64,000 bases of DNA. Origin: Aggregatilinea lenta. GTDB taxonomy: Bacteria; Chloroflexota; Anaerolineae; Aggregatilineales; Aggregatilineaceae. Positions 53,559-57,931 of this stretch are shown piece after piece. Below the pieces are notes generated by a model, which saw nothing but the letters and a program-made list of their open reading frames with translations, had not been told where the DNA came from and did no database searches. A program made the position numbers and the translations under genes. The DNA is taken from the NCBI RefSeq assembly GCF_003569045.1, contig NZ_BFCB01000003.1, forward strand, positions 1,860,001 through 1,924,000, written 5' to 3'. Positions within the stretch are counted from its first letter, which is position 1. Each line of letters begins with the position of its first letter.

Positions 53559-53634
53559 TGGTGACCCCGGGAGGACTCGAACCTCCAACCAATTGATTAA
53601 GAGTCAACTGCTCTGCCAATTGAGCTACGGGGCC
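53559..53634 (-). tRNA. tRNA-Lys (CTT), CCA encoded
   Basis: Acceptor arms GGCCCCG (53634-53628) and CGGGGTC (53569-53563), discriminator A (53562) and encoded CCA (53561-53559). Anticodon CTT at 53601-53599 in loop CTCTTAA. GGTTCGAGTCC gives the T arm. The tRNA-Leu and tRNA-Cys here do not encode CCA. Confidence 0.95.
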
Positions 53635-53864: not shown

Positions 53865-54497
53865 ATGGCACTCATTGAAGAGATTCGAGAAGCAGTTATT
53901 AACGGTCAGGCAAAGGTTGCTGTGCCCAAAGTTCAACAGGCGCTGGATGACGGCGTGCCCGCCGACCAGATTCTGCACGATGGCTTGATCGATGCCATGC
54001 GCGAAGTCGGGCGTATGTTCGAAGAGGGCGAGTATTTCGTGCCCGAAATGCTCATCGCCGCGCGTGCAATGAAAGGTGCGTTGGAGATCCTCAAGCCGTA
54101 CCTCGTTGACCAGGGCATTGAACCGCTGGGCCGCATTGCGATTGGCACGGTCAAGGGCGACCTGCACGACATCGGCAAGTCGCTGGTGGCGATGATGCTC
54201 GAAGGCGCGGGCTTCGAGGTGATCGACCTCGGCGTGGACGTGCCGCCGGAAAAGTTCATCGACCAGATCAACAGCGGTGCGCAGATCGTGGCGATGTCGG
54301 CCCTGCTGACGACGACCATGCCCAACATGAAGACGACCATCGAAGCAATTGAGGGCGCGGGGCTGCGCGATCGGGTCAAGGTGATGGTCGGCGGCGCACC
54401 CGTGACCAACGCCTACGCCTCGCAGATCGGCGCGGACGGCTTCTCTGAAGACGCATCCTCGGCGGTGCGCACGGCGGTGGGGCTGATCGGAAAATGA
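53865..54497 (+). CDS. Corrinoid (B12-binding) protein, MtbC/MtmC-like
   Basis: 210 aa. A helical cap (1-85) with FVPEMLIAARAMKGAL leads to the B12-binding Rossmann domain. The cobalt ligand His is in TVKGDLHDIGKSLV (DxHxxG), followed by SALLTTTM and GGAPV. It carries a methyl group on cobalamin between methyltransferases. AAGGAG precedes ATG 53865. Its stop overlaps the next start by 4 nt (ATGA), so it leads the operon. Confidence 0.93.
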   Translation: MALIEEIREAVINGQAKVAVPKVQQALDDGVPADQILHDGLIDAMREVGRMFEEGEYFVPEMLIAARAMKGALEILKPYLVDQGIEPLGRIAIGTVKGDLHDIGKSLVAMMLEGAGFEVIDLGVDVPPEKFIDQINSGAQIVAMSALLTTTMPNMKTTIEAIEGAGLRDRVKVMVGGAPVTNAYASQIGADGFSEDASSAVRTAVGLIGK

Positions 54498-55249
54498 ACC
54501 GTTACCTCGCCCTGACGTGCGAGGCTCTGGCGCGGAGCACCTACGCGATTGCAGCCACAACGCCGCATACGGTTTCGGTTCAGTTGTTCGAGCAGGGCCT
54601 TCACAATACGCCGAAGGTCCTGCGCGCCTCTCTCCAGGCGCAGATCGACGCGGTGCCGCCCGGTGAATATGATGCGATCCTGCTGCTCTACGGCATGTGC
54701 GGCACGTCGACCATCGGGCTGGCGGCGCGGCAGCTCCCGCTGGTGATTCCGCGCGCCCACGACTGCATTACGCTTTACCTTGGCTCGCGCGAGCGCTACG
54801 ACGCGGAGTTCAATGCGCATCCCGGCACGTACTGGTACAGCCTCGACTACATGGAGCGCAACCGCGACGCAAACGCGTCGGGGCTGGGCGCGATGAACCT
54901 GGGCGAGATGGACGAGGTTTACGCGGAATATGTCGAGAAGTACGGCCAGGACAACGCCGATTATCTGATGGAAGTTATGGGCGAGTGGGGCAAGCACTAC
55001 GACCGGGCCGTGTTCATTGACATGGATACCGGCGACGGGATGCGCTTCGAGCAGATGGCGCAGCAGCAGGCCGAGCGGCGCAATTGGCTCTTCGAGCGCA
55101 AGCAGGGCAACCGCCGCCTGCTGGAAATGGTGCTCAACGGCGAGTGGCCCGACGATGAAGTGCTTGTCGTGCCGCCGGGTCACGCGATCCGGCAGCGCGC
55201 GGGCGACGGTTTGATCGCGGCGGAACCCCTGGACGAGCCTCGTGACTGA
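54494..55249 (+). CDS. DUF1638 protein
   Basis: 251 aa. YLALTCEALARSTYAIA, LLYGMCGTSTIGL and PRAHDCITLYLGS fit DUF1638. A conserved His-Asp-Cys and several Cys could form a metal or substrate site. The family occurs next to corrinoid proteins, but its activity is not known to me. It overlaps the corrinoid gene by 4 nt and the reactivase gene by 8 nt, so it is tightly coupled. Confidence 0.85.
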   Translation: MNRYLALTCEALARSTYAIAATTPHTVSVQLFEQGLHNTPKVLRASLQAQIDAVPPGEYDAILLLYGMCGTSTIGLAARQLPLVIPRAHDCITLYLGSRERYDAEFNAHPGTYWYSLDYMERNRDANASGLGAMNLGEMDEVYAEYVEKYGQDNADYLMEVMGEWGKHYDRAVFIDMDTGDGMRFEQMAQQQAERRNWLFERKQGNRRLLEMVLNGEWPDDEVLVVPPGHAIRQRAGDGLIAAEPLDEPRD

Positions 55250-57053
55250 AGTTGCCTTCCAACCTATCGGGCGGCGTGTGCAGGCGAAGCCGGGCCAGAC
55301 GCTGCTCGAAGCGGCACAGCAGGCGGGAGTGGCGCTGTCGGCGGTGTGCGGCGGCGCGGGCATCTGCGGCGACTGCCGCGTGCGCGTGCAGCGCGGCGCG
55401 GTGAGCGCGCTCAACGACACCGAAGTTGACCTGATCACTGATGCCGATCTGGACAGCGGGCTGCGGCTGGCCTGCCAGACGCTGATCGAAGACGCAGGCG
55501 AGATCGTGGTGGACGTGCCTGCGGAGTCGCTCAGCGCGCCGCAGCGCAGTCAGGTCGAGGGCGAGGAGATCCCGCTGGCTGTCGCGCCGGTCGTCGCTGT
55601 GCACGACGTGCGCGTCGAGCCGCCGTCGATCCACAACCTTGCGGGCGACTGGGAACGGCTGCAAGGCATCGTCCCCGCCGACTGGCACGCGACGGCTCCG
55701 GTGCTGGCGCAGCTTTCTGGCACGGTCCGCGCGCATGACTGGCAGACGCGACTGATTGGGCGAGGGCGCGAAGTAGCTGCGTTCTTGCCACCAGATACCG
55801 CGCCGTTTGGGTTTGCTGTGGATGTGGGCACGACCGGGCTGGCCGCCTATCTGGTCGATCTGGTCACGGGCGAGACGCGCGGCATGAAGGGCGCTACCAA
55901 CCCGCAGATCGCGTATGGTGAGGACGTCATGGCGCGCCTGACACTGGCGATGCGCGAGCCGGAAGGCCGCGCGCGCTTGCAGGCGTCGATCATCGCGGGG
56001 CTGAACGACCTGCTGCGCGACGTTTGCGCGCAGGCGGGCGTGAGCCGCGAGCAGGTTGTGGACGTGGTGCTGGTCGGCAATACGGCGATGCATCACCTGC
56101 TGCTAGGGCTACCAGTCGAGCAGCTTGGCAGCGCGCCCTACGTCCCGGCAGTGTCGGCGGCGGTGAGCACGCCCGCCCACGCGCTTGGGCTGGACGTGAC
56201 CGAAGGCGCGGCGCTTTACATGCCGCCCAATGTGGCGGGCTTCGTTGGGGCGGATCACGTCTCGATGCTGCTGGCAACGGCGACCGCCGAACAGCCCGGC
56301 GTCACGCTGAGCCTGGACATCGGCACGAACACGGAAATTTCGCTCAACGCGAACGGCACGCTGTGGTGCTGCTCGACCGCATCCGGTCCGGCGTTCGAGG
56401 GGGCACACATCCGCGACGGGATGCGCGCGGCGGACGGGGCCATCGAGCGGCTGATCTGGCAGGACGGGGCGCTGCGCTGGATGACGATCAACCACGCGCC
56501 GCCGGTCGGCCTGTGCGGATCGGGCATCCTCGATGCGGTGGCGGTCCTGCGCGCGGCGGACATCCTGCGGCCCACGGGCGCGATGCGCCGCGATCGACCC
56601 GGCGTGCACGCGGAGCAGGTCAACCCGTGGTACGAGATCGTGCCTGCGACGCAATCCGGGCACGGGCGCGAGGTGGCGATGAGCCGTGCCGACGTGAACG
56701 AGGTGCAGCTCGCCAAAGCCGCCATTCGCGCCGGGATCAAGCTGCTGGTCGAGCGTGCCGGGTTGGACGAGGCGGATATCGACCGCGTGATTGTGGCGGG
56801 CGCGTTCGGCAATTACATCGACCTGGAAAACGCTATCGCGATCGGCATGTTCCCGCCGCTGCCGCTGGAACGCTTCCACCAGGTGGGCAACGCGGCGGGC
56901 ATTGGCGCGAAGCGGCTGCTGATCAACGCGCAGGAAAGGCAGCGTGCGGCGGGTATCGCGGCGCGGCTGAACTATATCGAGTTAACGAATCACCCGGATT
57001 TCACGGATCGCTTCAGCCAGGCCGTGCTGCTGACGCCCGATCCCTGGGAATAG
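55242..57053 (+). CDS. RACo-type corrinoid reductive activator ([2Fe-2S]-ASKHA)
   Basis: 603 aa. An N-terminal [2Fe-2S] ferredoxin domain (1-90) shows VCGGAGICGDCRV and a later Cys in RLACQ. The ASKHA/DUF4445 domain has FAVDVGTTGLAAYLVD, LVGNTAMHHLLLG, LDIGTNTEISL, LCGSGILDAV and VAGAFGNYIDL. It uses ATP to reduce inactive Co(II)-corrinoid back to Co(I). GTG 55242 is the start, overlapping DUF1638 by 8 nt. Confidence 0.93.
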   Translation: MTEVAFQPIGRRVQAKPGQTLLEAAQQAGVALSAVCGGAGICGDCRVRVQRGAVSALNDTEVDLITDADLDSGLRLACQTLIEDAGEIVVDVPAESLSAPQRSQVEGEEIPLAVAPVVAVHDVRVEPPSIHNLAGDWERLQGIVPADWHATAPVLAQLSGTVRAHDWQTRLIGRGREVAAFLPPDTAPFGFAVDVGTTGLAAYLVDLVTGETRGMKGATNPQIAYGEDVMARLTLAMREPEGRARLQASIIAGLNDLLRDVCAQAGVSREQVVDVVLVGNTAMHHLLLGLPVEQLGSAPYVPAVSAAVSTPAHALGLDVTEGAALYMPPNVAGFVGADHVSMLLATATAEQPGVTLSLDIGTNTEISLNANGTLWCCSTASGPAFEGAHIRDGMRAADGAIERLIWQDGALRWMTINHAPPVGLCGSGILDAVAVLRAADILRPTGAMRRDRPGVHAEQVNPWYEIVPATQSGHGREVAMSRADVNEVQLAKAAIRAGIKLLVERAGLDEADIDRVIVAGAFGNYIDLENAIAIGMFPPLPLERFHQVGNAAGIGAKRLLINAQERQRAAGIAARLNYIELTNHPDFTDRFSQAVLLTPDPWE

Positions 57054-57076
57054 ACGCACTTTGAGGAGAAACCATT

Positions 57077-57931
57077 ATGCAGACTGTTCTTAAAGGTCCG
57101 TCCGCTGTCGTCACCATCGGCCCGGACGAGCCGATCGTCGTGATCGGCGAGCGCATCAATCCTACGGGGCGCAAGGTCTTCAGCGCGGAGCTTCAGGCGG
57201 GCGATCTCAGCCGCCTCCCGCGGGACGCGCAGGCCCAGGCCGACGCGGGCGCGCTGGTGCTGGACGTGAACGTCGGCGCGGCGAGTGTGGACGAAGTCGC
57301 GCTGCTGCCGCAGGCGGTGCAGATCGTGCAGGACGCGGTCGATCTGCCGGTGTGCATCGACTCGGCCAATCCCGCGGCGCTGGCCGCGGCGCTCAAGGTC
57401 TGCAAGGGCCGCGCGCTGGTGAATTCGGTCAACGGCGAGGCGGAAAAGATGGCGGCGGTGTTCCCGCTGGTGGCGGAATATGGCGCGACGGTGATCGCGC
57501 TGTGCATGGACGACAGCGGCATCCCCGCGACGCCGCAGGGCAGGCTGGCCGTGGCGGAAAAGCTGCTCGAAACGGCGCACGGCTACGGCATCGCGCCCGA
57601 CGCGATCCTGCTCGATCCGCTGGTGATGAACGTCGGCGCGGATCACACGGCGGGGCGCATCACGCTCGAAACGGCGCACCAGATCCGCGAGCGGCTGGGC
57701 TGCAACATGACGGCGGGAGCCAGCAACGCCTCGCACGGCATGCCGGACCGCGACCTGATCAACACCGTCTATCTGGCGCTGCTGCGGCAGGCGGGCGTCA
57801 ACGCGCCGATCTGCAACCCGTTGAAGAACGGGCTGGCCGTGCGCGCGATTGACCTCATGCTCGGTCTTGACGAATGGGGCATGAACTACATCGGGCTGTA
57901 CCGGGTGCTTCAGAAGGCCGCAGAGGCCTGA
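57077..57931 (+). CDS. Methyl-THF:corrinoid methyltransferase (MtgA/AcsE-like)
   Basis: 284 aa TIM-barrel of the pterin-binding family. VVIGERINPTGRK, ALVLDVNVGAAS, VCIDSANPAALAAAL, LVNSVNGE, DPLVMNVGAD and AGASNASHGMP match methyltetrahydrofolate-dependent methyltransferases. It moves a methyl group between the corrinoid protein and THF. GAGGAG precedes ATG 57077. Its end overlaps the convergent WYL gene by 22 nt. Confidence 0.93.
   Translation: MQTVLKGPSAVVTIGPDEPIVVIGERINPTGRKVFSAELQAGDLSRLPRDAQAQADAGALVLDVNVGAASVDEVALLPQAVQIVQDAVDLPVCIDSANPAALAAALKVCKGRALVNSVNGEAEKMAAVFPLVAEYGATVIALCMDDSGIPATPQGRLAVAEKLLETAHGYGIAPDAILLDPLVMNVGADHTAGRITLETAHQIRERLGCNMTAGASNASHGMPDRDLINTVYLALLRQAGVNAPICNPLKNGLAVRAIDLMLGLDEWGMNYIGLYRVLQKAAEA

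Follow-up and report, generated by a model that had tools for sequence, protein, structure and literature searches.

The genome of Aggregatilinea lenta (class Anaerolineae, order Aggregatilineales) encodes a corrinoid methyl-transfer operon within a 64,000-nucleotide stretch of contig NZ_BFCB01000003.1 (positions 1,860,001 to 1,924,000, hereafter the window). The operon (window positions 53865-57931, + strand) consists of four open reading frames (ORFs) on one strand, coding for a corrinoid protein, a DUF1638 protein, a RACo-type activase and a methyl-tetrahydrofolate (THF) methyltransferase (MeTr). We consider it probable, at roughly 60%, that the operon represents a B12-dependent methyl-transfer core with partners in trans, which forms a split methionine synthase with a lone homocysteine methyltransferase of family PF02574 and probably also takes part in UroD-type demethylation. 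Both flows, into methionine and out of UroD substrates, are favoured over methionine synthesis alone. The system is mostly of a known kind, and its set of possible partner enzymes is unusually large.

Operon organization and core proteins

Pfam and NCBIfam profiles confirmed the four-gene corrinoid unit with DUF1638 that had been recognized in a first-pass annotation of the window. The first three genes overlap, by 4 bases between the corrinoid protein and DUF1638 and by 8 bases between DUF1638 and RACo, and the MeTr gene starts after a 23-base gap behind RACo, with its own GAGGAG ahead. The order DUF1638-RACo-MeTr is repeated in four loci of relatives (L067, L069, L071 and L072), indicating that the operon arrangement is not due to chance. 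An opposite-strand tRNA gene lies upstream (53562-53634), and a gene for a WYL-type regulator is convergent to MeTr, their 3' ends overlapping by 22 bases (57910-57931). A scan for promoters and terminators yielded nothing usable beyond chance.

The first gene (53865-54497, + strand) encodes an MtbC/MtgC-like corrinoid (B12) carrier protein of 210 amino acids (aa), which matches PF02607 (81 bits) and PF02310 (97 bits) and contains the motif D-x-H-x-x-G as DLHDIG. Its top NCBIfam models, MtgC_2 and MtbC, both scored under their cut-offs, and its nearest solved chain is 1y80, a 'predicted cobalamin binding protein'. The third gene (55242-57053, + strand) encodes a RACo-type ATP-dependent corrinoid activase of 603 aa with an N-terminal [2Fe-2S] domain, matching PF14574 (RACo_C_ter, 256 bits), PF17651 (Raco_middle), PF17650 (RACo_linker) and PF00111 (Fer2), with similarity to the solved structure 3zyy (E 1.1e-94). 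The fourth (57077-57931, + strand) encodes a methyl-THF:corrinoid protein methyltransferase of 284 aa that belongs to PF00809, exceeds the cut-off of NF005719 (285.6 bits, cut-off 259) and matches the solved chains 4o0q, 2yck and 2e7f.

DUF1638 and RACo (PF14574) each occur once in the 6.2 Mb genome, which is 98.4% complete. PF00809 is represented by two genes, those of MetH and MeTr, the latter being the sole stand-alone member found; dihydropteroate synthase (FolP) was therefore not seen, and folate may perhaps be imported or otherwise made. Four matches to PF02607 were identified, namely the corrinoid protein of the operon, C3:1294419, MetH and an open frame at C1:809782. The first-pass annotation had also stated that no substrate methyltransferase adjoins the operon, which holds. 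Searching the whole genome for the MttB superfamily, as it had proposed, returned no match to MttB (PF06253), and a further search for MtaB (PF12176), not extended to the MtmB and MtbB families, found none either. MttB was likewise absent from all 15 genomes of the window's order in our draw from the class. The expectation of an MttB-type enzyme as the usual partner proved too narrow, and the suggestion that the partner lies elsewhere gained support from 20 UroD-superfamily paralogues and from a lone PF02574 protein resembling those that accompany DUF1638 in relatives.

A putative homocysteine methyltransferase partner

Three PF02574 matches are present in the genome: MetH, a frame beside it resembling a fusion with methylene-THF reductase (MTHFR), and a lone protein of 311 aa (C3:1707608-1708543) encoded 205 kb from the operon. 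The lone protein shares 62-73% identity with the PF02574 proteins of ten loci in relatives (L066, L068, L070, L074, L075, L081, L083, L087, here a 159-residue fragment, L124 and L157). DUF1638 lies within about 1 kb in nine of these ten loci; in L157, RACo and UroD stand beside PF02574, with DUF1638 about 15 kb off on the same contig. Identity is 49-56% to the PF02574 proteins next to divergent DUF1638 genes (L166, L167, L169, L170 and L176) and 37-39% to the MetH and MTHFR-fused domains of the same genome. The clusters of relatives thus suggest that the lone PF02574 protein is a partner of the operon. Its gene adjoins one that by eye resembles glucose-6-phosphate dehydrogenase. The PF02574 frame directly after MetH (L010:9357-11234, an ORF of 625 aa in a frame of 628 codons) is, by size and homology, an apparent methylene-THF reductase fusion.

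UroD-superfamily paralogues and sugar loci

The genome contains 21 matches to PF01208, 20 of them above the cut-off. C3:859221 (450 bits) was taken as HemE by score, and 20 other UroD-superfamily paralogues are present. In the alignment, all but one of the 20 (19) retain a zinc-type His; the ligand two residues further along the chain varies between Cys (12 proteins), Asp (seven) and His (one), and the third ligand position is occupied by Cys in six, His in seven and other residues in seven. The UroD protein of L051 aligns with MtaA (4ay7, E 4e-25) with the HIC and PGC motifs in register, and those of L061 and L064 gave weak UroD or MtaA matches alone (E 0.002 and 0.015). Kountz and Balskus (PMC10418091) take His-Cys-Cys to indicate S/Se-type chemistry and carboxylates to indicate the O-type. 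Zinc is not universal in UroD-superfamily demethylases, CdmB being without it.

Thirteen of the 20 UroD genes (in L008, L051, L058, L060, L061, L062 and L063, and two each in L053, L056 and L057) are located in regions of 13-20 kb with Pfam-confirmed genes for sugar uptake, sugar regulators, glycans or sugar catabolism. Neighbours were scanned for 19 of the 20 genes, L065 excepted; for six of them (L052, L054, two in L055, L059 and L064) the scan took in one or two neighbours and revealed no such sugar genes. Sugar-type binding proteins or permeases were identified in 10 of 16 UroD regions (L064 included) versus 8 of 40 evenly placed controls (p 0.004), and the enrichment was the same when a region's own proteins were dropped as queries. 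The UroD regions vary between 13 and 20 kb, compared with 16 kb for each control, and one pair of UroD regions overlaps. A second stand-alone corrinoid protein is encoded in L008 (L008:10015-14938, G000:C3:1294014-1298937), where genes for UroD, the binding protein, permease and ATPase of a sugar ABC transporter and the corrinoid protein follow each other on one strand, with a LacI regulator upstream. Neither an activase nor a MeTr was found among the scanned genes beside this corrinoid protein.

Two further genes were noted near UroD paralogues. L064:4459-5496 (G000:C3:1117458-1118495) encodes a core-MetE-like protein of 345 aa, the sole PF01717 match of the genome; genes for a UroD paralogue and for a FecCD-type permease lie nearby. 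L058:3515-4615, beside another paralogue, is an ORF picked by the UroD profile that has no Pfam family and is perhaps a diverged copy.

The DUF1638 protein

The second gene of the operon (54494-55249, + strand) encodes the DUF1638 protein of 251 aa (PF07796, 124 bits; sole genome match), which exceeds in length the DUF1638 proteins of Alphaproteobacteria used for comparison (about 200 aa). Four of its residues, Cys9 (54518-54520), His37 (54602-54604), Cys69 (54698-54700) and Cys91 (54764-54766; all + strand), are candidate metal ligands. A set of 38 proteins, made up of the window's protein and 37 class members from 40 loci, shares all four without exception, even though seven of the set score just 22-50 bits by profile; L171-L173 were left out of the count because the profile gave no DUF1638 there (Pfam scores about 45-69 bits). 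Among 11 proteins from Alpha- and Betaproteobacteria plus one archaeon, Cys9, His37 and Cys91 are conserved in all and Cys69 in 10, the archaeon having Asp. A larger alignment of 77 rows, among them a fragment that begins past Cys9 (L111) and without L102 (internal stop), L097, L125 and L131, has His37, Cys69 and Cys91 invariant and Cys9 kept in at least 90%. The searched open-access literature naming DUF1638, in which one paper does no more than list the protein in a table, makes, in its accessible text, no mention of this residue set.

Structure prediction, another proposal of the first-pass annotation, gave an AlphaFold model (pLDDT 88.7, pTM 0.83) and no clear structural relative. In the model the four residues are positioned at or just past strands in the first part of the chain, a placement that might bring them together as a candidate metal site. 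Foldseek returned no matches at E <= 0.001, and the best E value of a Protein Data Bank (PDB) sequence search was 0.12. The best VIA-align match was allantoin racemase 5lfd (Z 8.0, 110 residues, 3.8 A), followed by asparaginases and ribose-binding protein with Z near 7; these matches were judged too weak for naming a fold. DUF1638 looks like an accessory protein, proposed to keep the corrinoid protein active, because it occurs near three unrelated methyltransferase families: MttB (L113, L177 and L198), UroD (L163 and L165) and PF02574 (L068 and L166).

Gene neighbourhoods and co-occurrence across the class

The 80 nearest DUF1638 loci were taken for comparison, 38 of which have the full 5 kb on both flanks. 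Within 5 kb of DUF1638, RACo was found in 30 loci, a corrinoid protein in 23, UroD in 18, PF02574 in 13, MeTr in 12 and MttB in one. G006 (L163) and G118 (L165) encode DUF1638, MeTr, the corrinoid protein, UroD (confirmed as PF01208) and RACo in this order on one strand, with an extra ORF ahead of RACo in L163; G118 lacks MttB. By profiles, L075 reads UroD-corrinoid protein-UroD-RACo-PF02574-DUF1638-UroD. In the locus of G228 (L166) a single strand carries corrinoid protein-RACo-PF02574-DUF1638; a small ORF separates RACo from PF02574, and a MeTr piece (44 bits) is truncated where the region ends. In 40 class loci picked by DUF1638 score and genome, some of them from close relatives, UroD lies near DUF1638 in 10, versus 2.6 expected from candidate number and genome size (P about 7.5e-5).

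The class-wide tally comprised 249 genomes, 116 with and 133 without DUF1638. UroD counts per genome are first-look candidates rather than scored genes (24 candidates versus 21 matches in the A. lenta genome), p values across the class are inflated by shared ancestry, and G233, G239 and G248, which have no UroD number, were entered as low in the tally and omitted from the within-family test. RACo is present in 110 of the 116 genomes with DUF1638 versus 71 of the 133 without, and at least 10 UroD candidates occur in 69 versus 22 of them, respectively. Genomes with neither MttB nor seven UroD candidates encode DUF1638 in 11 of 86 cases, all others in 105 of 163. RACo is also found in 88 of the 91 genomes with at least 10 UroD candidates, and within families DUF1638 and RACo agree in 12 of 13 (p 0.003). 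Among the 15 genomes of the window's order, UroD candidates number 24, 11, 19 and 8 in the four that encode DUF1638, compared with 2-5 in each of the other 11. UroD-family genes are strikingly expanded in G060, G245, G131, G043 and G007, with 70 to 107 first-look candidates each.

Proposed function and alternative explanations

For the activities, protein contacts, direction of flow and metal of the core and its partners, we infer the following scheme. The corrinoid protein would carry the methyl group on cobalt, and MeTr would load it from, or unload it to, tetrahydrofolate. RACo would use ATP and an electron from its [2Fe-2S] cluster to return oxidized cob(II)alamin to cob(I)alamin, a reactivation that DUF1638 may aid, perhaps via a metal at Cys9, His37, Cys69 and Cys91. 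Together with the lone PF02574 protein the core would act as a split methionine synthase, and it probably also takes methyl groups from the substrates of some of the 20 scattered UroD-superfamily methyltransferases.

Several observations weigh against this reading. MetH is encoded in full length, activation domain included (PF02965, 110.7 bits), which makes a second methionine synthase look redundant. The PF02574 proteins of six further DUF1638-bearing loci (L094, L112, L126, L133, L136 and L142) are just 38-42% identical to the lone one, and the RACo of eight PF02574 clusters forms a more distant group (320-370 bits versus about 950-1000 in window-type operons). No PF01208 match lies within the window, and no SAM or B12 riboswitch was found upstream of the operon; scans of L009 and eight loci of relatives for riboswitches likewise returned tRNAs only. 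None of the six partner families occurs within 5 kb in 36 of the 80 DUF1638 loci, and when only the 38 loci with complete flanks are counted, 20 lack them all; partnerless loci of the window type include L080, L090, L095 and L098, the flanks of some being short. The 40 class loci are not independent, as 11 of them, two of the 10 with UroD included, share contigs with L066-L145, and the pairs L072/L152 and L120/L154 each lie on the same contig. The count of MttB co-occurrence advised in the first-pass annotation showed that DUF1638 tracks MttB too, MttB being present in 85 of the 116 genomes with DUF1638 and absent from 31, versus present in 48 of the 133 without. Fewer than seven UroD candidates were found in 11 of these 31 genomes, and within families DUF1638 goes with more UroD in just 14 of 21 informative families (p 0.19).

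A bolder version, which we advance tentatively, is a hub in which one core serves some twenty UroD methyltransferases, many encoded at sugar-uptake loci, that strip O-methyl groups from methylated sugars and glycans for transfer to folate and homocysteine, with DUF1638 as a Cys3-His metalloprotein taking part in the reactivation of cob(II)alamin. Corrinoid-dependent removal of methyl groups from sugars would then be, as far as our searches show, a new activity for the UroD superfamily; a link of UroD-type enzymes, sugar loci and such a core was not found in the searched open-access literature. Should many UroD enzymes draw on a single core, genomes with between 20 and 100 candidates for 'uroporphyrinogen decarboxylase', a label that generic annotation might give to expanded UroD-family genes, may be rich in B12-dependent demethylases. 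The reading of Anaerolineae metabolism and methyl-group cycling would change accordingly, and the sugar loci would hint at substrates. DUF1638 itself has a genetic phenotype and no proposed function, and since its residue set is conserved among the bacterial proteins compared and, with one exchange, in the archaeal one, its role is directly testable.

The operon and the lone PF02574 protein may instead constitute a second, split methionine synthase and nothing else, the UroD paralogues being unconnected. The presence of all five Phaeobacter-type parts and the closeness of the lone PF02574 protein to DUF1638-linked ones agree with this, as does the case of Sinorhizobium meliloti, where DUF1638 and RamA-like proteins coexist with a MetH that bears the standard reactivation domain (PMC5764234). 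We nevertheless regard it as rather unlikely, given that a complete MetH is already encoded, that UroD and DUF1638 form clusters in relatives, and that a second corrinoid protein lies by UroD and sugar transporter genes while the sole activase and stand-alone MeTr found are those of the operon. The reverse restriction, in which methyl groups pass from UroD-type demethylases through the core to THF, the lone PF02574 protein having another role, for example with S-methylmethionine, is less probable again: the ratio of 20 UroD paralogues to a single stand-alone MeTr, RACo and DUF1638 and the UroD/DUF1638 profile within the window's order speak for it, but close relatives of the lone PF02574 protein adjoin DUF1638 and RACo in other genomes. 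That DUF1638 itself takes the methyl group from a substrate or delivers the substrate, as the first-pass annotation had considered, is very improbable and was rejected: although DUF1638 belongs to this operon and many alike, and its invariant Cys and His could bind Zn as in some corrinoid methyltransferases, it coexists with three different and unrelated substrate enzyme families, its model has no clear methyltransferase match (which alone excludes nothing), fitness data put it with a three-part synthase and activase (PMC5764234), and the literature groups it with reactivation (PMC5764234, PMC12478193).

Comparison with known systems

A plasmid search with the window's DUF1638 retrieved nothing, and searches with DUF1638 subtypes retrieved one record (L013) and ten records (L166). 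The Azoarcus KH32C plasmid carries corrinoid protein-DUF1638-virulence factor-MetF parts-MeTr-ASKHA, flanked to either side by genes for glycine betaine transporters; a plasmid of the halophilic archaeon Halomicrococcus carries corrinoid protein-ASKHA-DUF1638-MtrH. Six-frame profiles detected no UroD, MttB or PF02574 in these stretches (14 kb each); the same profiles do detect MttB in S. meliloti and Paracoccus, adjoining the corrinoid gene. In Terrarubrum, corrinoid protein-DUF1638 is followed by a gene called virulence factor, and no UroD, MttB or PF02574 was found. A core without an adjacent substrate enzyme is therefore not exceptional.

The operon resembles the O-demethylase and haloalkane systems OdmB, VdmB, MtvB and CdmBCA (PMC13222342) and the type 1 mlp clusters (PMC10418091), which combine a UroD-fold methyltransferase with a corrinoid protein and an activase, in part also with MeTr. 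It differs in that the core lies far from the candidate methyltransferases and includes DUF1638; neither paper is among those of the searched literature that name this family. Type 1 mlp clusters are defined by Mlp2 and Mlp3 (MtaA-like) within the cluster, and no PF01208 match lies in the window; the 20 non-HemE PF01208 paralogues, one of them under the Pfam cut-off, are all encoded elsewhere in the genome. In Ruegeria, one corrinoid protein and one MeTr serve glycine betaine demethylation and methionine synthesis alike (MtgBCDE; PMC12478193). This sharing by a demethylase and a homocysteine methyltransferase, together with RamA and DUF1638, parallels the arrangement proposed here, where, by contrast, MtgB (PF06253) has no match in the genome, so that an MttB/MtgB-type demethylation system is not represented, and the candidate methyl donors are UroD-superfamily proteins.

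The closest likeness in parts is to the split methionine synthase of Phaeobacter inhibens, for which mutant fitness showed that methionine supply requires DUF1638 and a RamA-like protein alongside a synthase in three pieces, a corrinoid protein, a PF00809 protein and a PF02574 protein (Price et al., 2018, PMC5764234). All five parts are present in A. lenta, with PF02607 and PF02310, the stand-alone PF00809 protein, the RACo activase and DUF1638 in the operon and PF02574 in trans. This match, together with the similar cores on the Azoarcus plasmid and in the halophilic archaeon, makes the term 'undescribed system' used in the first-pass annotation too strong. A. lenta differs from Phaeobacter in that four of the parts form one operon, DUF1638 is longer and a full MetH with the activation domain PF02965 is encoded besides; this domain, absent from Phaeobacter, is not a defining difference, as S. 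meliloti has such a MetH.

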